DNA from: Pseudomonadota bacterium
GTDB lineage: Bacteria > Pseudomonadota > Gammaproteobacteria > Burkholderiales > Methylophilaceae
Assembly: GCA_029556915.1 (NCBI GenBank)
Contig: JAKQIT010000142.1
Coordinates: forward strand, 87,439 to 151,438
Reading direction: 5' to 3'
DNA length: 64,000 nucleotides
This document shows, in pieces, positions 54,505-64,000 of this stretch. The number at the start of each line of letters is the position of its first letter. The first letter of the stretch is position 1. Position numbers and translations under genes: made by a program. The notes beneath the pieces were generated by a model. The model searched no databases. It was given only the letters and a program-made list of their open reading frames with translations, and was not told where the DNA came from.

Positions 54505-55353
54505 TCACGAAATATCGATGGCGGTTTTAATTTGCAACTGAACTTTACTCTGCCCGTTGTAGCGGTTGGTTTGCAAGGCATAGGCAACTTGAACCGGGCT
54601 TGGCAGAAAATTGGTTTGGTTAAAGTAAATCGCTTCAATAACTAAGGACTCTTTTTTCAAAGATAGTTTGAGATGTTTTTCAGACAGTAAACGTTGATCG
54701 ACAACTTCAAACGTATCAAAAAATAATGGGGATACAAAACCTTGCCCCCACACTTGATTTTCAAGCATTTCTGCTGTGGCAAAATGCATTTCATCGGTTT
54801 GCAAACTGCCGTCAATTTCAAGCACAGATTCTAAATCTGCTTCCGTAATCAAGTTCTTGACTACTGCCTCAAAACTTTGTGCAAACTGGGCAAAATCAGC
54901 CTGTTTAATCGTCAACCCTGCTGCCATGGCATGACCACCAAATTTTAAAATTAAATCCGGTTGATGCTTGCTGAGTAAATCTAGCGCATCACGCAAATGT
55001 AAGCCCGCAATGGAGCGGCCTGAGCCTTTCAACAAGCCATCACCTGTATCGGCAAAAGCAATCGTTGGCCGGTGAAAACGTTCTTTGATACGCGAGGCTA
55101 AAATACCAATCACGCCTTGGTGCCAATCAGGTTGGAATAGACTCAAACTAAAATGATTTTCAATGGCGACATCTTCTAGTGAAAGTGTTGCACCATCTTG
55201 CATGTCGGCTTCAATGCTGCGGCGTTGCAGGTTTAGCTCTTGCAATTGCTGGGCAATTTTCATGGCTTGGTTTGCATTTTCTGCGAGCAAGCATTGAATG
55301 CCTAAGCGCATATCATCCAACCGCCCTGCCGCGTTTAGGCGTTTATATTGCAT
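54505..55353 (-). pseudogene. recJ: Truncated recJ: C-terminal half of single-strand-specific exonuclease
   Basis: A 282-aa open frame equals the C-terminal part of RecJ. It begins at RLNAAGRLDDMRLGIQCLL, the region before DHHA1, keeps GVIGILASRIKERF, KGSGRSIAGLHL, the DHHA1 loop KFGGHAMAAG and the OB-fold end. The N-terminal DHH catalytic domain, about 290 residues in E. coli RecJ (577 aa), is missing. Homology starts at about residue 5: the first residues MQYK are not RecJ-like. Without the DHH motifs it cannot be an active exonuclease. The junction at about 55341 is the island edge. Confidence 0.9.
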
Positions 55354-55635
55354 CCTTTATTTACGTCTTAAAATGTCCAACATGGAATTGTTAAAAAAAA
55401 AGAAAAAGGTATTAATTAAGAATAAATATTCTTATTTAAAAATAGCTTATATCTCTTAAGAATTGGTAATTGGTTTATAAAGTATTTTTTATCTCAAAAA
55501 TCACTTTTACGGACTATATGCACAGATTTTTAATATCTTTGATTTTAAATAATCAGAAAATATGTCATTTACATATCATAATCCTTATATCTTGAAAATT
55601 GTAGTCACAACAATAATGCACCTCGAGTTCAAAAA
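55342..55635. other. Island left edge and gene-free AT-rich spacer
   Basis: The 294 bp between the recJ remnant and the RecJ-like gene hold no ORF. They contain a run of A (55393-55401) and the palindromes AAGAATAAATATTCTT (55418-55433) and ATATGTCATTTACATAT (55560-55576), possible operators or promoter parts for the downstream gene. No integrase, tRNA or direct repeat marking an attachment site is visible. The composition is strikingly more AT-rich than the recJ remnant. Confidence 0.7.
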
Positions 55636-57411
55636 ATGCTAACCCCCCCTAAACCCATATTTAAACCTCGTGAAAGTCATGAAGAAGTTTTTGCAACCCT
55701 AGTTGGATGTGGTACGCCAGATTGGCTTGCTAAAATTTTGTCATCTAGATTAGATAAGCCCATTGAAGTTGAATTGCTTTATTCTAATGATCTTGCTGAT
55801 GTAGTAGACCCATCATCAATACCTGATATGGATGTCGCAGTTAGGCGGATAGTTAGAGCAATCAAAAATGAAGAAAAAATAGTATTAGTCTGTGATCATG
55901 ACATGGATGGAACTGGCTCTGCAGCTGTGTTATGGGTCGCATTGATTGATTATTTCAACGTTAATGAATCTTTGGTTAATGTTGTGACAAGTCATCGGCT
56001 CACTGAAGGTTACGGAATTACTGAGCCAGTTGCACAAAGAATTATTGAGTTAAAGCCCGGCCTAGTTATATCGGCAGATAAAGGTAGTAGCGATGAACCA
56101 AGAATAAAGAAAATTGCAGAAGCTGGCATTGATGTAATTGTCACTGATCATCATGAAATAGGCATCAATGGTCCACCTAAATCTGCTATTGCAGTAGTCA
56201 ATCCGATCAGAACTGATTCAAGCTACGACAAGCATGTATGCGGTGCAGGTGTGGCCTTTTTAACTATGGCAAAAGTTAGAACAGCTTTAATTGTAGATGG
56301 AGTTAGGCAAATGATTCCAAGCTTAGCGCCTCTCTTAGATTACGTAGCTGTAGCAACAATCGCAGATTGCGTTTCAATGAAACCAGATAAAGCTTCTACG
56401 AACAGAACATTTGTTAAGCGAGGCTTACAATTAATTAATAATAAAACAAGGCCCTGCTGGGAAGTGTTTTGTTCTGAACTTCAGGGGCCTGTTGATGCGG
56501 AAACGATTGGTTTTAGACTCGCACCTGCAGTAGCCGCCGCAGGGAGACTAGATTGGGCTGAAGTGGGTTTTAAGTTTTTAATAGCAAAGACTAAAGCAGA
56601 AGCTCAAAAATGTTGGCAAGTATTACAGGATGAAAATGCATTACGAAAAGAAATTGAGAAAAAATTAAGGGAAAGAGCAATTCCAGAAGCATGTAAAAAA
56701 AACGGTCAATCAATCGTTTTATTTTTTGAAGATGGTCACAGTGGCGTTCATGGAATTACCGCAAGCAGGTTAGTTGAGGCTTTCGGAAAGCCCGCAGCGA
56801 TATTTTCACCCAAGGGTGCTGGAGTTAAAAATTCGACTTCAAGTGATACGATAAAGATAGCCTCCGGATCGTTTCGTGCAATACCAGGATTCAATGTAAA
56901 GGAAGCGCTATCTTATGTTGATGAAAGATACCCTGGTCTTCTTTTAAGTCATGGTGGCCACCATGGGGCAGGCGGTGGCACGATTTTAATATCTTCATTT
57001 GATAGTTTTGTTAACGCTTATGAAGAAGCTGTGAATGAGCAAATTGGTGATAAAGAATTAAAGCCTACAATATGGGTCGATGATGAGTTACCAATAGGAT
57101 TAAGCGATATTAATGTATTGAATGAACTAGATAAATTAGAACCTTGGGGTCGAGATTTTCCTTATCCAATATTTAAGGGTAAATTTGAAGTGAGGAATAT
57201 TCAATCCTTAGGCGATGGAAGTCATCTGAAGTTATCCCTCTGGAATGGCATAAGCCTTAAAGACGCAATATGGTTCAATGCGCTTCAAAGTGGTTCTGAA
57301 ATTGAATTTAAAATTGGGAGTACTTTGAACTTAGTTTACTCTTTAAAGAGTAATTGGTATCGTAATAATAGAAAAATCCAACTCCAAATCGTGTCTCAAA
57401 TTGATAACTAA
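55636..57411 (+). CDS. RecJ-like DHH/DHHA1 family exonuclease, island-encoded
   Basis: A complete 591-aa DHH phosphoesterase. Motif I is CDHDMDGTGSA (D87, H88, D89), motif II is SADKGSS (D148; RecJ has DNG), motif III is TDHHEIG (D171, H172, H173), and motif IV is around D235. AAAGRLDWAEVG corresponds to the RecJ segment where native recJ is cut. DHHA1 has SHGGHHGAGGG and an OB-like C-terminal domain follows. It should degrade single-stranded DNA 5' to 3'. It is divergent from the recJ remnant and convergent with the minus-strand operon. Start at MLTPPKPIF; AT-rich codon use suggests transfer. Confidence 0.88.
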   Translation: MLTPPKPIFKPRESHEEVFATLVGCGTPDWLAKILSSRLDKPIEVELLYSNDLADVVDPSSIPDMDVAVRRIVRAIKNEEKIVLVCDHDMDGTGSAAVLWVALIDYFNVNESLVNVVTSHRLTEGYGITEPVAQRIIELKPGLVISADKGSSDEPRIKKIAEAGIDVIVTDHHEIGINGPPKSAIAVVNPIRTDSSYDKHVCGAGVAFLTMAKVRTALIVDGVRQMIPSLAPLLDYVAVATIADCVSMKPDKASTNRTFVKRGLQLINNKTRPCWEVFCSELQGPVDAETIGFRLAPAVAAAGRLDWAEVGFKFLIAKTKAEAQKCWQVLQDENALRKEIEKKLRERAIPEACKKNGQSIVLFFEDGHSGVHGITASRLVEAFGKPAAIFSPKGAGVKNSTSSDTIKIASGSFRAIPGFNVKEALSYVDERYPGLLLSHGGHHGAGGGTILISSFDSFVNAYEEAVNEQIGDKELKPTIWVDDELPIGLSDINVLNELDKLEPWGRDFPYPIFKGKFEVRNIQSLGDGSHLKLSLWNGISLKDAIWFNALQSGSEIEFKIGSTLNLVYSLKSNWYRNNRKIQLQIVSQIDN

Positions 57412-57452
57412 CGGCTCTGTATTTATATAGCAATGGATCGAGATAAATTAAT

Positions 57453-58133
57453 TTAAGTATTTAAGCTGGATAAGTATGGGAATGTAGCCTCCGTCATTTG
57501 AAAGTCATGATTCCGTGTTCGATGATAGTTCAGTGCTTGCAAATATCCATGAGATGCCAGAATTGAGTCAAACTGTTTAAATTTAAGATGCTCGGTGATC
57601 CAAGTAAAAAAGTTAAATGGATTAATCAAATATTGGCTTGTAATTCGAATTTCATTTATAGATGCTACTTGTATATGACATTTAGAATGAGTATCTACTT
57701 TGCTATCATAATCAAGCCTTATATATGAAGTGTTAACTATATCTATTCCACGGTTAACCCAAGCTTCGGCACCAAAATATAGTTCTTCCAAAAGATCTAC
57801 ACCGCTCAACTCTGCACTTTCAAGAAGACTATTTAAAGCCCCTGAGATTTTCACAGGAGTAGGGTAAAAAGCCAGTTTTGCTTTTCTTAATTCTTGATTT
57901 TCCCATTCAAAGAAAAATTGAAAAAAAGAATTATCTTCTAATAAAAATGAATACTGTCTGTTATCAATTAATCTTTGATATACCGCAGCGTAAGCAAATC
58001 CTTTATCAATACCTGGCTTATAATTCCTCCAAGATATTGTGCTAGCGGTTCTGTCAGTATTGCTATCCAAAAGAATTTTTGAAAAACAAACGTTAATATC
58101 ATTCAAAGATCGCCCAACAACTTGATCATCCAT
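57453..58133 (-). CDS. Island protein of unknown function (DUF2290-like)
   Basis: A 226-aa protein with no signal peptide or membrane segment. Its layout (YNSFFQFFFEWE-like start, FYPTP, then RLDYDSKVDTHSKCHIQVASINEIRI and NPFNFFTWITEHL; cited in short pieces: FYPTP, RLDYDS, CHIQ, NPFNFFTWI) is reminiscent of DUF2290, whose function is unknown, but I cannot confirm the family. The start ATG is 5 nt after the helicase stop, so it is in the same operon. It is the last gene of that operon. Likely a partner or specificity protein of the helicase. Confidence 0.8.
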   Translation of the reverse strand: MDDQVVGRSLNDINVCFSKILLDSNTDRTASTISWRNYKPGIDKGFAYAAVYQRLIDNRQYSFLLEDNSFFQFFFEWENQELRKAKLAFYPTPVKISGALNSLLESAELSGVDLLEELYFGAEAWVNRGIDIVNTSYIRLDYDSKVDTHSKCHIQVASINEIRITSQYLINPFNFFTWITEHLKFKQFDSILASHGYLQALNYHRTRNHDFQMTEATFPYLSSLNT

Positions 58134-58138
58134 ATGGT

Positions 58139-60361
58139 CTATTCTTGGTCATCAAAATTATGTTGTTCTTGGAATAACATTTGCTGCGAAAACTCTTTTA
58201 ACAAATTTGGGTTATTTCGAGCTATCTTCTCAAGTAATGCCTGGTCGCTTTCAACAGAACTATCAGTTTGAGCTAAGATGAATCTTCGGCGTGCAATTAG
58301 ATCATCATTTGGTCTTTGGTAAATGAATTTAGGTATATCTTTTTGGATTTCATTAATTTCTTTTATGAGTCTATCCATAGGCTCGCCAACCCCAGTGAGA
58401 TAACACCAACCTCGAGATCTAGTAGCAGATACAAAAAAGGAGTTTCTTTTCCTAAATGTTGAATCAGTCGGTACTGTTTCACAATTTGCAACAAAGACTA
58501 CATTTGCTTCGTTTCCTTTAGCTTTGAATGGGGTTGTTAGTACAACACAATCTTTCTCATAAAAATGTCTAGCAGACTCTACAAATCCGGGCATTATGGA
58601 TCTAATTCCAAATTCATTAAGCTTTGATCTAATCGACTTTAAGAACGTCTCAGACGTTTTAGTGTTGATTGCTATTACGAATATGTCGTGGGGATTAACT
58701 TCCTGGCTCTCAATCAGATATTTTATCTTTTCAGCAATATACTTAGTTTCAATTTCTTGACTATCTGCCTTTTCTAATTGAATTAAACTATCTGGTAATT
58801 TTCCCCAATCTTGTATGATTTTTTCTAATAAATTAGTGCTATTTTTATCCAATCTCTCAACTTCCACCGTATCGCCTTCTTTAATTTGGGCTACTCCTAA
58901 TGGAGAATTAACTTGATAGCCTAGCGCTTCCCAATCTGCAACTCTATCTACGCTATCTACAACCCCGCCAGGTCTTTTAATTCCGAGGGCAATCCCATGA
59001 GCCACCATAAGAACATTTCTTGGGTTTCGATAACAATTTGATAGTACGAAATCTTTTGCAACTCCACCAGCATATGTTCCTGACAATGTCCCTTGAGGAA
59101 ATCTGGGATTGCCATCAGGATTTTTCCCAAAAAGTTCATCGAATTCCCTTATGCGAAGAGATTTTAAAGATTGGAAATCATCATAGGCTACAACAATCCG
59201 TTTAGGATCTTTAGTTAATTTATAAACAATTGCAAATACTTCATTAGGGAAGTCTTGTGCCTCATCTATTAATACCATGTCATAAATTGGTTTTAATGAG
59301 TTTCCCAAAAGCGTTTCGATTTGTTGATAAATAACAGATAGTCCGTCCATGTTGCTTGGAACATCCTTAAGTGTAAGGGGACTTATCCCATACTCATCAC
59401 ATATCTTTGAATACAACCCTCTTCCTGAGGTTCTGCCACCCCAAGCATGAAGGATATCAATGGAACCCTCAGGTAGGCTTAATTTGCTCTCTTTTGCATA
59501 ATAATCCCCAACTTGTCTTTCTATTAAATTATAGAGGCTTTGAGTATTAAATAAGTACAGTATTTTAAAATCGGGTGCTCGCAAAGCAGTTAGAGCTGCT
59601 TTTAAGGAAAGAACTACTGTTTTGCCTGTGCCTGCAAGACCCCGGATTCTTTGAGGTCCATTGGGAATTTGCATTGACACTTGTCGCTGAGAGTTATCTT
59701 GTTTAAATGTTCTATTTAATGATCTCACAATATATTCATTGACTGTTTTAGGTTTAACAGAAGAGTCAACTGGAGATGAAATGCCTCTATAATCCCAAGT
59801 CCCCTCAATTAGACTTAATATGTCATCAAATTGCTTATCTGTACCCTTCCATATCTCATTATTAAATTCAGATTTGATGGTGTCTTGATAGGTCTCAGAC
59901 CCAAGCTTAGATATGCTGGATTCAAAAAGTCCAAAGTTTGTTAATTCTTCAAATTTATTTTCTCTAAATATTAAGACTGGACTTATTGGAACGAGTAGTT
60001 TTTTAGTTTTTCTGTCATAAAGACTAGCCGATCTTTTAAATCTTGCCTCAATTTCATCTCTATATAATTCGAGAACTAAATCTCTGGAATGAGAAATTCC
60101 ATTTGCGGTTTTCCATGTTCTGCCATCTTCTTCGACGGCAGTAACCTTGTCATGAATAACATCTATTAGAACGACACCATGTTCTTGTGTAACTACAATG
60201 AAGGTAGGAACTTCTGATATCGAAGTAGCACCTAGGAATGGTATTTTGTAGGCGCAATAGCCATGAAAGCTTGCGATTTTTTTCGTTAAAAATTCCCATA
60301 CTTCAAGGTCGTAAGGGTTGTTATCAATTTCTAAAGACCCAGGTAGGTATTGAATTGCCAT
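58139..60361 (-). CDS. SF1 (UvrD/Rep-like) helicase with degenerate nuclease-like N-terminus
   Basis: A 740-aa DNA helicase. Walker A is RGLAGTGKTVV (240-250), motif II DEAQD is at 366-370, and later motifs are AYDDFQSL (motif III region), TTPFKAKGNEANVV (609-622, motif V) and FVSATRSRGW (643-652, motif VI). The N-terminal 130 residues contain VVTQEHGVVLIDVIHDKV, which resembles a NERD-type nuclease core with the active-site Lys lost. Similar NERD-helicase fusions occur in defence systems. It sits between the nuclease protein (61-nt gap) and the 226-aa protein (5-nt gap). Confidence 0.87.
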   Translation of the reverse strand: MAIQYLPGSLEIDNNPYDLEVWEFLTKKIASFHGYCAYKIPFLGATSISEVPTFIVVTQEHGVVLIDVIHDKVTAVEEDGRTWKTANGISHSRDLVLELYRDEIEARFKRSASLYDRKTKKLLVPISPVLIFRENKFEELTNFGLFESSISKLGSETYQDTIKSEFNNEIWKGTDKQFDDILSLIEGTWDYRGISSPVDSSVKPKTVNEYIVRSLNRTFKQDNSQRQVSMQIPNGPQRIRGLAGTGKTVVLSLKAALTALRAPDFKILYLFNTQSLYNLIERQVGDYYAKESKLSLPEGSIDILHAWGGRTSGRGLYSKICDEYGISPLTLKDVPSNMDGLSVIYQQIETLLGNSLKPIYDMVLIDEAQDFPNEVFAIVYKLTKDPKRIVVAYDDFQSLKSLRIREFDELFGKNPDGNPRFPQGTLSGTYAGGVAKDFVLSNCYRNPRNVLMVAHGIALGIKRPGGVVDSVDRVADWEALGYQVNSPLGVAQIKEGDTVEVERLDKNSTNLLEKIIQDWGKLPDSLIQLEKADSQEIETKYIAEKIKYLIESQEVNPHDIFVIAINTKTSETFLKSIRSKLNEFGIRSIMPGFVESARHFYEKDCVVLTTPFKAKGNEANVVFVANCETVPTDSTFRKRNSFFVSATRSRGWCYLTGVGEPMDRLIKEINEIQKDIPKFIYQRPNDDLIARRRFILAQTDSSVESDQALLEKIARNNPNLLKEFSQQMLFQEQHNFDDQE

Positions 60362-60422
60362 AGCATTCTCAGATTTATGATTATCTAATAAGCAATTGTA
60401 GAACAGAACTTAGCTGCATAGT

Positions 60423-63400
60423 CTATCTTAAAGATAGAGCTATCAAATAATCTGACAATGAATCGACTGGAATTATGTCTTTAGTACTTACTGGTAGTTC
60501 TTTTGTATATTTGAAAGGCACTATGATATTAGTAACTAGTGGATTGAAAAGCTTCAAATTTAGTGTTGGGATATTTAAAAACTTCTCAAGTTTTGGACGG
60601 TTCTGGTCTAGCCATGTAATACGCCTTATATGTTTATGAAGGTGATCTCCTACATTACCTTGAAATCTTGAGCAGTTTTGTGCAATTTCGGAAATGGTAC
60701 GTGCTCCTTTTAAGCGTTTACATTCGATCGCTAAAACGTAGCCTTCTTCAGACCAAGCAAGGACATCAATATCGCCTAGATTGGGAGATTTTCCAGCTCC
60801 TAATTGTGTCATTTTCACTTCTTCAAGTGCTTGCCATCCTAACTTTCTTAATAGAGCAGCTACTTCGTGTGTAAATGATCTACCAGCTTCGTCTACACGT
60901 TTTCCTATATAAGATCTCATGTTACGTGACACGAATACGTCTTTATCGAATTTACCATTAGAAATAGAATCTATGATGTATGCGAAAGACTCTCGCATGG
61001 TGCCTACACCAAAAACATATGTAGTTTCGTCTAAGTTTTTACACTCAATTAATGGCCGTAAAATAACCGACAGCTTACGCTCAAACCTCCAAGGCTCTAC
61101 ATCGCTGGGCTTGACTGGGGACTGTGGAGCCCAAGTGTTGCGTGCTTTCAAAGAAAATGAATTCAAAAAGGCATCAATATCTTCGGGATTGACTGGACGA
61201 TCTTCGCATAGGTTAACAATTTCGTCGCGTGTCTGTGATATCACGACGGTATCTTTATCGAGACACAAGTCCATCAAACATCCCACAATTTCAATTAATT
61301 CTGGAAAGCCAAATCCGTATTCAGCACGGAATGCGGAAAGAAATTCCTCTGTACCAAATTCCCCTTCTTTTTCTGGATGATCTCGTTTTTCACTTGGTAA
61401 AACCCAGTTTTCATAATCTTCTGCTGCAGCCACATATTTTGCATTAAAGCCTGCTTGGGTATATGAATTGCCAATCTCAGAAAGAATATCTGCGGTAAAA
61501 GCATATGCCCCGCTTGGGTATATACTGATCCCTTCGGAGGCTAGGCCGTGATAAATAGTCTCCGAGTCTCGACCAAGATTGATTAAGGCGCACATTAATC
61601 CATATAGCTCATCAGTACTATATTCGTCTAAGGTCAAACTACTTTCCTCAGAGCATTCACAAACAGCAGCTTCAATAAGCACCCTTAGAGTCAGAGTTCC
61701 TTCCGAGCGTTCCCGCTCAACCTTTTCTGCTGCCGAGGTACCACTATCATTACCATATAATGCTCTAACGGCTCTTGCTGTTGAGCGCCAACGATGTCTA
61801 TCATTAATAAGCGTTTCATGTAAAAACAAAAGCTGACTAACAACATGTTTTTTATTATAAAGTTTGAGCTTTTGAGCGATTTTATGAAGTAAGTGTGTCA
61901 CTGCATTATTCAATTCTTGACAACTTTCTTCAGTGCTAAGTGAACGCTTCTCTTTGCATGGGGGTAGCCAAGAAAAGGCCGAACGCATGTTAAAGCCTAT
62001 ATGTTCTTCAGGACGCCTAAAAATAGGTCTAGCGTGAGTACTAAGTAGATGCTCGATGGCCCTTTCGCTTTCAAATGTGTGGAGAATTTTTGCATCTGAC
62101 CCACCAAGTATACTAAGTGCCTCTGCATCATGACTAAATATTGCAGGATTCGAGGTTTCAGCTAGCATGTAAAATGCAGCTATGACTCGGCCAAGTAGCT
62201 TAACTTCCCCAGTATTTTTTATGCCAACGAAATGACGAAGAAATGCGGGGCCAGCAACAAGTCTAGCTACTGGTAGTGTTCTATGTAGCAGTAATTCTAA
62301 GCTATCTGAAAGTGTTGAACTGTCTCGCGCCTCTTGGGCAGAAAGCAATCCCCTAAAATCAATAAGTAACTCAACTACTGGCTGAGAAAAAGATATTGAC
62401 CCCTCTGATTGTTTAAGAAATTTATAAACCAGTTGCTGCAAACCTTCCCAAAGCTTGAAACAAGCATGTCGCACTGAATTGTCACTCGAGTTTGTTAATG
62501 AAGTAACCCATACAGTTGTCGTTTTAAAAAGAATACAAAAGCCTAAAGCATGGCGTTCGATTCTTGTAAGACTTATATAAATGGGGAGATCTCTTATTGA
62601 AGAATAAATAGAATCCGAATCTGCTTTAATTACACGCTCAGTAGCACCATGTACTGATAACTCACAATGTTCATCCAGAGATTTTCTCCGCTGAATTCTA
62701 AATGATGTGACATGGTCAGTAGCAAGATGGATAAATCCTGAACCAGCATGAGGAATATCTGGCAAACGCAAACAGCAACTTTGTTCTATCCAATATGCAT
62801 ACAGATTTATTAAGCCATTCATGTTGAAAAACTCTAGTCCCTCTGTGAGCATCAATTTGCGCTGCTCAAGCATACAAATAAGCTTGTCTAATGGACCATC
62901 CGAATCCTGTAATATAAATATCAAATCATGAATTCGGCATAAATCGAAACTCCAACGGTGACGAGTTTCTGGGAATGTTATTAAGAAGGGCTGGCCAAGG
63001 TGCCCCAAAAGCAGCAAAGTGTGAGCTGAGTCAACTTGATAATTTGTATCAATATATAAACGGAAATTCTCAATATGCACATCTAGTTTCTTCTCTTCTT
63101 CTTCGCCATATTCAGTTGGCTGTAATAGCCCGACCTCTGCGAATTGAGCTAGAGGATCTGACAAAAACATCAGATGTATGTATCTTCGCTTTCCTACTCT
63201 AAATAAATGACTCTGACAAAATTCAGGAATTTGTGACAGTTCGTGAGGGGTAGTAACATACTCAACTTGGTGGCGACTTGTAGATTCAACCATTTTGACT
63301 GCCTGTTGCATTACTTCGCTCATCAACCAGTCTTCAAGCTTATCAAGCCATGTGTGATTTTTTGCTTGTTTTAATACAAATCGTTTTACAGCATATGTAA

Positions 63401-63866
63401 CTGAAGTAGGCAGTGAGAGTATTAATTCATTGCCATATTGAATTAAAGGCTTTACATGCAACTCTGACTCTTGGTTACTCTGCTCAAGCAATGTTGCAGA
63501 ATCTGATAAGTTAAAGATAAAAGGCTGAAGCAAATCTAAAGAAATACCTAAAGATTCAAGGTCGGAAATGGTTAATTTGGCACGTATGCTCCATTTATCC
63601 CATGGGTCTGAAGGCTTTATTAAAATAGAAACTTTTGGTGTAGAAGGCTCTATCTGCCATCTTTTAAGGCCTGCGCGCTTAAGAATAAAATCTGAGATCT
63701 TTAATAAAGCTACTGCTGGAGCCAAAGATTTGAGCTCATCTTTACTACCATATCTTTCAATGGCCTTAATAAGCAAACTTGTAGAGGCATCGGGCGACTC
63801 CCACAAACCTCCCAGCACTAAGAAATCACCTTGATTCGTCAATATATTTGAGACGAAGACATACAT
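60423..63866 (-). CDS. Large island protein with C-terminal PD-(D/E)XK nuclease domain
   Basis: A 1147-aa protein. The first about 990 residues form no domain I recognise; they are alpha/beta in character with many aromatic and Leu residues and two Cys-rich stretches. The C-terminal region (about 1000-1110) is a PD-(D/E)XK nuclease: FTHEVAALLRKLGW, then GDIDVLAW with D1034, then AIECKRLKG with E1048 and K1050, then a Gln (FQG). This is Mrr/REase-like and should cut DNA. The ATG at 63866 follows an in-frame stop 10 codons upstream, so the start is secure. It leads the operon with the helicase and 226-aa gene. Confidence 0.82.
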   Translation of the reverse strand: MYVFVSNILTNQGDFLVLGGLWESPDASTSLLIKAIERYGSKDELKSLAPAVALLKISDFILKRAGLKRWQIEPSTPKVSILIKPSDPWDKWSIRAKLTISDLESLGISLDLLQPFIFNLSDSATLLEQSNQESELHVKPLIQYGNELILSLPTSVTYAVKRFVLKQAKNHTWLDKLEDWLMSEVMQQAVKMVESTSRHQVEYVTTPHELSQIPEFCQSHLFRVGKRRYIHLMFLSDPLAQFAEVGLLQPTEYGEEEEKKLDVHIENFRLYIDTNYQVDSAHTLLLLGHLGQPFLITFPETRHRWSFDLCRIHDLIFILQDSDGPLDKLICMLEQRKLMLTEGLEFFNMNGLINLYAYWIEQSCCLRLPDIPHAGSGFIHLATDHVTSFRIQRRKSLDEHCELSVHGATERVIKADSDSIYSSIRDLPIYISLTRIERHALGFCILFKTTTVWVTSLTNSSDNSVRHACFKLWEGLQQLVYKFLKQSEGSISFSQPVVELLIDFRGLLSAQEARDSSTLSDSLELLLHRTLPVARLVAGPAFLRHFVGIKNTGEVKLLGRVIAAFYMLAETSNPAIFSHDAEALSILGGSDAKILHTFESERAIEHLLSTHARPIFRRPEEHIGFNMRSAFSWLPPCKEKRSLSTEESCQELNNAVTHLLHKIAQKLKLYNKKHVVSQLLFLHETLINDRHRWRSTARAVRALYGNDSGTSAAEKVERERSEGTLTLRVLIEAAVCECSEESSLTLDEYSTDELYGLMCALINLGRDSETIYHGLASEGISIYPSGAYAFTADILSEIGNSYTQAGFNAKYVAAAEDYENWVLPSEKRDHPEKEGEFGTEEFLSAFRAEYGFGFPELIEIVGCLMDLCLDKDTVVISQTRDEIVNLCEDRPVNPEDIDAFLNSFSLKARNTWAPQSPVKPSDVEPWRFERKLSVILRPLIECKNLDETTYVFGVGTMRESFAYIIDSISNGKFDKDVFVSRNMRSYIGKRVDEAGRSFTHEVAALLRKLGWQALEEVKMTQLGAGKSPNLGDIDVLAWSEEGYVLAIECKRLKGARTISEIAQNCSRFQGNVGDHLHKHIRRITWLDQNRPKLEKFLNIPTLNLKLFNPLVTNIIVPFKYTKELPVSTKDIIPVDSLSDYLIALSLR

Positions 63867-64000
63867 GGACGCCCACAGTTTGCCAAGCTTTCATTTGATG
63901 ATTTTGAGTTGGTAAAGATTGCAGCCATACATCCGGATTTTATATGAAGCTCATCGCTTCTATCCCTGATGGAATATGCTGAGTAGCACCTTATCATCCT

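Follow-up and report, generated by a model that had tools for sequence, protein, structure and literature searches.

A mobile island that splits recJ in a Methylophilaceae genome carries a RecJ-like exonuclease, a probable substitute for the host enzyme

The window analysed here is a stretch of 64,000 nucleotides (nt) of contig C22 from the Methylophilaceae genome G000, and it ends with the gene for a RecJ-like exonuclease followed by three further genes. An initial annotation, made from the window alone, had described these four genes as AT-rich, closely spaced and lying at the edge of an island, and had proposed that they form one defence-type module in which the RecJ-like protein resects invading DNA. 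The arrangement was borne out: the three minus-strand genes (57453-58133, 58139-60361 and 60423-63866) are separated by gaps of 5 and 61 nt, the RecJ-like gene (55636-57411) is complete and convergent to them at a distance of 41 nt, and the four have G+C contents of 33-40% (39% for the RecJ-like gene, 33% for the DUF2290 gene, 36% for the helicase gene and 40% for the Upx-like gene) versus 44% over window positions 1-54504. The island edge is real as well; recJ sequence picks up again at about 55341, so that the start proposed for the module, 55342, practically coincides with the boundary. The neighbouring gene (54505-55353), which had been left outside the module, is the host recJ truncated by the island to its C-terminal half. 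We read the locus as the edge of a mobile island inserted in recJ and the RecJ-like protein as a substitute for the host RecJ that the island destroys, and we give this reading a probability of about 0.75. The features of the locus are as follows.

54505..55353, minus strand: C-terminal half of the host recJ (DHHA1 and OB domains; Pfam DHHA1 and RecJ_OB, TIGR00644 positions 266-544)
55342..55635, no strand: island end between the host recJ and the RecJ-like gene (junction mapping)
55636..57411, plus strand: gene for a RecJ-like exonuclease (DHH/DHHA1/OB) that would replace the host RecJ (Pfam, NCBIfam, relatives at broken recJ genes, ratio of nonsynonymous to synonymous substitution rates [dN/dS])
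57453..58133, minus strand: DUF2290 protein, small partner of the helicase (PF10053 4.8e-12; PDLC02998 2.5e-15)
58139..60361, minus strand: UvrD-like superfamily 1 (SF1) helicase of the Helicase+DUF2290 pair (PDLC03002 4.9e-99; PF00580, PF13538)
60423..63866, minus strand: Upx-like PD-(D/E)XK protein without its N-terminal residues, about 100 (NF042954 from position 98)
63860..64000, no strand: insertion sequence end, common to the end of contig C23; contig C22 stops here (repeated sequence at contig ends)

Three matches to the RecJ model TIGR00644 were found in the G000 genome, all of them below its cut-off: positions 2-268 on contig C49, positions 266-544 on C22, and the complete RecJ-like protein. 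With the junctions placed against the intact recJ of G434, the first 12 or so nt of the open reading frame (ORF) 54505-55353 are island DNA, and this ORF begins 282 nt from the RecJ-like gene. The N-terminal half of recJ lies on C49 beside a recombinase operon, and is followed by ORFs of 612, 786, 206, 132, 735 and 592 residues. The 735-residue protein is a RecD2-like helicase (operon region L006:6314-10296), and the 592-residue protein has a P-loop kinase-like domain fused to a weak phage-integrase (tyrosine-recombinase) match. The 612- and 786-residue proteins gave no Pfam or NCBIfam match; they are probably recombinases, because an operon of G434 resembles the 612-, 786-, 206- and 592-residue proteins at 28-39%, and because of their C-terminal sequence. 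As reconstructed, the island comprises about 40.3 kb of C49, an unassembled element and 8.7 kb of C22 (about 50 kb), with C49 placed next to C22 because the halves of upx match across both contigs. The window yielded no tRNA gene, an SOS control found no exact CTGT-N8-ACAG anywhere in it, and a scan for promoters and terminators returned signals no better than those of shuffles.

The same association of a RecJ-like gene with a broken recJ recurs in other genomes. A search for the RecJ-like protein (E<=1e-80) over 187 genomes of the family found it in five: G000, G430 (86%), G568 (84%), G410 (84%) and G548 (66%). In G410, on a single contig, recJ positions 143-541 adjoin the RecJ-like gene and positions 3-142 lie about 49.5 kb away; in G430, an N-terminal piece (residues 20-79) adjoins it, with about 44.7 kb between this piece and recJ positions 61-545; in G568, positions 266-544 adjoin it and the second half was not found, the contig being 16 kb long. 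Both halves of the host recJ are present in G000, G410 and G430, one in G568, and none was seen in G548. The break points differ: between VGD and YDADG in motif I (G430), inside TDHH in the DHH motif (G410), and between GPR and LNAAGR in motif V (G000 and G568). The outer bases of the island end at 55342..55635 (GATGCAATATAA.. in the sense of recJ) are the same at the G568 junction. A complete divergent recJ at one end and recombinases at the opposite end were observed in G000, G410 and G430; the opposite end is not visible on the short contig of G568.

The recombinases and the RecJ-like gene have separate histories, judging from alignments and a RecJ tree. The operons far from the RecJ-like gene encode proteins of 429, 515, 724 and 179 residues in G410 and of 440, 508, 821 and 122 residues in G430, with phage-integrase matches in only part of these proteins, some of them weak. 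BLAST aligned the G410 and G430 operons at 22-23% over long stretches (the small proteins at 30% over 57 residues), and the G000 operon had no BLAST counterpart in either beyond 28 residues of its 132-residue protein. The RecJ-like proteins of G000, G410, G430 and G568 are 83-94% identical, and they are under purifying selection, because dN/dS is 0.06-0.13 over the six pairs (in pairs with G548 the synonymous sites are saturated). The tree joins G000 to G410 (weakly, 89/77) and G430 to G568 (97/88), pairings that cut across the insertion sites. A scan for imperfect terminal inverted repeats of 13-19 bp, such as SE elements have, gave best matches that were equalled in 8, 36 and 176 of 500 base shuffles for G410, G000 and G430, respectively.

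In the mechanism we propose, tyrosine recombinases would insert the island into recJ at codons of its active-site motifs, and a divergent, intact RecJ would ride at the island end opposite the recombinase operon. This enzyme would take over the 5'-3' single-strand exonuclease work of the destroyed host RecJ; if it does replace the host enzyme, then integration would therefore be tolerated and loss of the RecJ-like edge would be penalised. The RecJ-like coding sequence, unlike the motif-V site of recJ, would be a poor target for the integrase concerned, suggesting a form of target immunity. Over the 26 bases of the motif-V site, RecJ-like genes agree with the G434 recJ at 10-12 positions, and 16 host recJs agree with it at 15-20; the corresponding values over 26 bases are 14-17 and 17-20 at site A, and 15-17 and 15-23 at site B, where there is no clear difference. 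The slot beside the RecJ-like gene would hold changeable cargo, here the Helicase+DUF2290 pair and an interrupted Upx-like gene. A wider proposal, to which we lean slightly less than we lean away from it, is that unrelated tyrosine-recombinase islands converged on invariant active-site codons of recJ, that they share a separately exchanged spare RecJ that is itself a poor motif-V target, and that cells come to depend on an island sheltering anti-phage and metal-resistance cargo.

We class this recJ-targeting, recJ-supplying family with the target-replacing islands, a kind already described, as a variant at recJ. The precedent is the recA mobile element (RME) of Vibrio cholerae S24 (PMC4405046), which measures 32.8 kb, splits recA, excises and retargets recA, and bears a complete, divergent recA at the end opposite its integrase. 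The recJ islands resemble RME in lying within a recombination-repair gene, in having the integrase and a complete, divergent copy of the target at opposite ends, and in being AT-richer than the genome. They differ in that RME is one described element at one site (494 bp into recA), whereas here there are three recJ sites with dissimilar operons, and in that excision and retargeting have been demonstrated for RME. If our reading is correct, a strategy known for recA from a single Vibrio island, breaking a repair gene and supplying its substitute, recurs, and this recurrence rests on three recombinase operons, three recJ sites and one spare RecJ; the choice of conserved catalytic codons and the lock-in of the island in the genome then become testable. 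It would also warn against taking a nuclease that adjoins defence genes at the edge of an island for a defence effector; such a nuclease may instead substitute for a repair enzyme.

The recombinase operons can also be likened, by description, to those of the SE and GInt elements (PMC9345347, PMC5385486), which are characterised by a terminal operon of three tyrosine-recombinase-type genes and a small gene, by cargo that varies and by target specificity; several distantly related GInts share the target ssb. Size and order of the SE operon (intA-tfp-intB-srap) agree with those in G410 and G430, where the integrase domains were only partly found; G000 differs, its operon being larger, with a RecD2-like helicase and a P-loop-fused recombinase. 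The description of GInt expects insertion to stop short of full inactivation of the target, whereas the recJ islands interrupt theirs in active-site codons, and the word recJ is absent from three SE/GInt main texts. An integrative and conjugative element of Neisseria mucosa has been reported next to recJ, with a hypothetical gene on its other side, and does not interrupt recJ (PMC7371117). The open-licence literature searched, some of it available in part, contained no report of an island inside recJ, which is not proof of absence.

Several observations weigh against substitution. The two recJ halves of G000 sit on separate contigs, and it is the match between the upx halves that supports continuity of the island. 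G548 (87% complete) yielded neither a split host recJ nor any other recJ, and its RecJ-like gene does not lie within the recJ neighbourhood of three congeners. As a control we took a census of TIGR00644 matches over the family: of its 187 genomes, recJ is matched in 174 (in 164 over the cut-off, including the G430 fragment), and 13 have no match, three of these with completeness of 90% or more and contamination of 5% or less. Only sub-cut-off matches were found in 10 genomes, namely the carriers G000, G410, G548 and G568, the full-length G472, and G412, G431, G499, G505 and G537. The recJ pieces of the non-carriers G412, G499, G505 and G537 end at contig ends; those of G499 (271) and G505 (145) stop near the motif-V and DHH sites, a chance proximity that proves nothing. 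In G431, recJ starts at KLDDNNR (motif IV region, a fourth break point) after about 170 nt of AT-rich non-recJ sequence reaching the contig end (L110, G431:C71, about 3280); this genome shows no RecJ-like gene, and the island stretches compared offer no convincing counterpart to the 170 nt. The RecJ-like protein of the window also scores 354.4 bits to TIGR00644, below the RecJ equivalog cut-off of 396.9, and its motif V has neither the R nor the N of GPR[IL]N any longer.

Two of these genomes invite a specific explanation, and a third is of separate note. An in-place replacement of recJ in G548 was considered and is unsupported by the neighbourhoods of the three congeners; an unassembled island in G431 (90% complete, about 450 contigs) is possible. 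G564 has three long RecJ matches (L096, L104 and L108), two of them over the RecJ cut-off, at a contamination of 5%.

The changes in the protein bear on its competence as a RecJ. It has the DHH, DHHA1 and RecJ OB domains (Pfam) and retains the metal-ligand motifs that characterise TIGR00644 proteins (ligands assigned as for drRecJ, PMC4846377), whereas it lies on a divergent branch and has APAVAAAGR in place of GPR[IL]NAAGR. This form of motif V is present in the five close copies; the other 23 compared proteins have PRxN (PKxN in one of them). Arg280 of drRecJ, its 5'-phosphate residue and the R of AAGR, is kept, and the R274 and N276 positions are changed. The altered motif V is one of the points that favour an alternative we consider unlikely, in which the RecJ-like protein acts for the island (in circularisation, replication or maintenance) or in some other specialised capacity, while the host does without RecJ or relies on other exonucleases. 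Mutants of E. coli in recJ are viable, and RecJs from the branch of the RecJ-like protein also occur on plasmids. In Bacillus cereus, the gin elements, which lie in gerE and not in recJ, carry a recJ homologue for which maintenance or mobilization has been proposed (PMC5595907). The same source describes further likenesses to the recJ islands (a low-G+C island splitting a host gene, three recombinases, restriction-modification genes) and differences from them (serine recombinases, a target that is restored during sporulation, a recJ unlike the target). These elements are the best published support for an island RecJ that serves its island, and they too count against substitution.

Service to the island alone would sit poorly with the recurrence of the RecJ-like gene at broken host recJ genes beside dissimilar recombinase operons, and with the distribution of its relatives. 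A wider search (E<=1e-78, with a sole-match check at 1e-10) of 311 other genomes of the class (Gammaproteobacteria in the GTDB sense) found a RecJ of this divergent type in 20, at 35-47% identity to that of the island, and in 20 of the 20 it is the sole recJ match; an exclusively mobile branch of RecJ is not upheld. The nearest RecJ outside the family, in G597 (47%), has the same APAVAAAGR and is the sole recJ match of a genome estimated to be 100% complete. Its neighbours are presumably homoserine-threonine pathway and efp-type housekeeping genes, to judge from their sequences. Of 19 class loci, 10 have PRxN, one has TRIN, seven lack R and keep N, and G597 lacks both; leaving G597 aside, the R of motif V is absent from 7 of 18 RecJs that are the sole match of their genomes. 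G597 and the class relatives would thereby support the competence of the RecJ-like protein. Because G597 shares it, the motif V change appears to predate the island and not to have been invented for immunity; the idea that it evolved for target immunity is weakened by this chromosomal RecJ in a housekeeping-like setting. In a tree, island and plasmid RecJs stand apart from 15 host RecJs, subject to long-branch and composition warnings, and a scan of viral contigs found no relative.

We then turn to the genes beside the RecJ-like gene. The defence-type label fits the helicase, the DUF2290 protein and the Upx-like protein; the RecJ-like protein fits the setting of a broken recJ instead. The four genes had not been matched to a named system, whereas PADLOC and NCBIfam place three of them in two described systems. 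The helicase aligns to PDLC03002 over residues 55-734 of 740 (4.9e-99, PADLOC), and it lies on the same strand as the DUF2290 gene, 5 nt away, the gene content that defines Helicase+DUF2290. A pair of an ATP-dependent helicase and a DUF2290 protein inhibits phage T7 (Rousset 2022, PMC9122126). By gene content, the two genes here are this anti-phage pair: the UvrD-like helicase with adjacent DUF2290 is the same, whereas the pair in the window is a divergent member (PADLOC DUF2290 2.5e-15) and is linked to an interrupted Upx-like gene.

That gene proved to be incomplete. The protein encoded at 60423-63866 matches Upx in PADLOC (PDLC02221, 2.6e-111) and in NCBIfam (NF042954, 420.3 bits versus a cut-off of 1900; a full-length relative in G347 is likewise below the cut-off, at 510.3 bits), and it aligns along nearly the whole model with a PD-(D/E)XK-type C-terminus, whereas it is broken by an insertion sequence. 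The part in the window aligns to NF042954 only from position 98 and starts at a repeated sequence found at the ends of both C22 and C23, a sharing expected at a repeated element. On C49, 102 codons ahead of an insertion sequence end (L008:1941-2246) align to positions 21-97; they are 54% identical to the N-terminal part of the G347 relative up to residue 160, and the window part resumes at 161. A complete Upx is rejected, there being no single intact frame and the N-terminal part lying on C49 ahead of the insertion sequence. Judging by the first residues of its reading frame, the element at the break is probably IS110-like.

Co-occurrence was evaluated over 399 genomes of the order (E<=1e-40). 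The helicase is found in 7 and Upx in 3, and both occur together only in G000, which argues against one four-gene module. It also makes it highly improbable that the Upx-like gene, the helicase and DUF2290 form one composite three-gene defence system: the three share a strand with gaps of 61 and 5 nt, whereas none of the 398 other genomes has both helicase and Upx, the G347 stretch has Upx without the pair, six loci have the helicase without Upx, and upx is interrupted here. At five of the six other helicase loci the next gene matches DUF2290; at the sixth, the downstream neighbour (220 residues) has no significant match, and an alignment at 17% identity shows conserved residues in common. These loci (10-12 kb each) contain no RecJ-like or Upx match, and phage records gave no helicase match at 1e-20.

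The remaining way to tie the RecJ-like protein to defence is as cargo, a resecting nuclease working with the Helicase+DUF2290 pair or with Upx, the broken recJ being incidental. Pairing of helicases with nucleases is common in defence, only 41 nt separate the RecJ-like gene from the operon, and two further island copies also adjoin defence-type genes: TIR-type PDC-S35 and T5orf172 genes in G430, and NarE and AbiU2/HEPN families in G568. The neighbours nevertheless vary among the carriers, those in G410 being metabolic or stress genes as read from sequence; none of the six other helicase loci has a RecJ-like match, and the RecJ-like gene faces the operon in convergent orientation and turns up repeatedly at broken recJ genes. 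We regard this explanation as very unlikely. The resecting role within a module that had been assigned to the protein is not sustained either: the RecJ-like gene adjoins a broken recJ in four of the five carriers, and the four carriers other than G000 do not have these defence genes next to it. A single four-gene defence module is rejected on co-occurrence and neighbourhoods, and substitution for the host RecJ is the reading we retain.

Some further genes were observed around these subjects. The defence-type genes of the other islands include PDC-S35 TIR, T5orf172 and a type-IIG-like fragment (L067:11994-14642), NarE and AbiU2 (L048:11984-13295), and an NsnA/PD-T4-2_A-like gene (L069:16664-17800). 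The cargo of the G000 island (L006 11829-19596, and L007) includes CzcCBA-like metal efflux, copper/cadmium-type resistance, P-type ATPases and a MerR-type regulator, judged from translations alone. In G027, the order DrmMI, helicase, DUF2290, DrmA, with 4-nt overlaps (L086:57-10997), places the pair among DISARM-type genes, and L087 of G150 has the same arrangement on inspection of the sequence; the Helicase+DUF2290 pair may be a module that joins DISARM.

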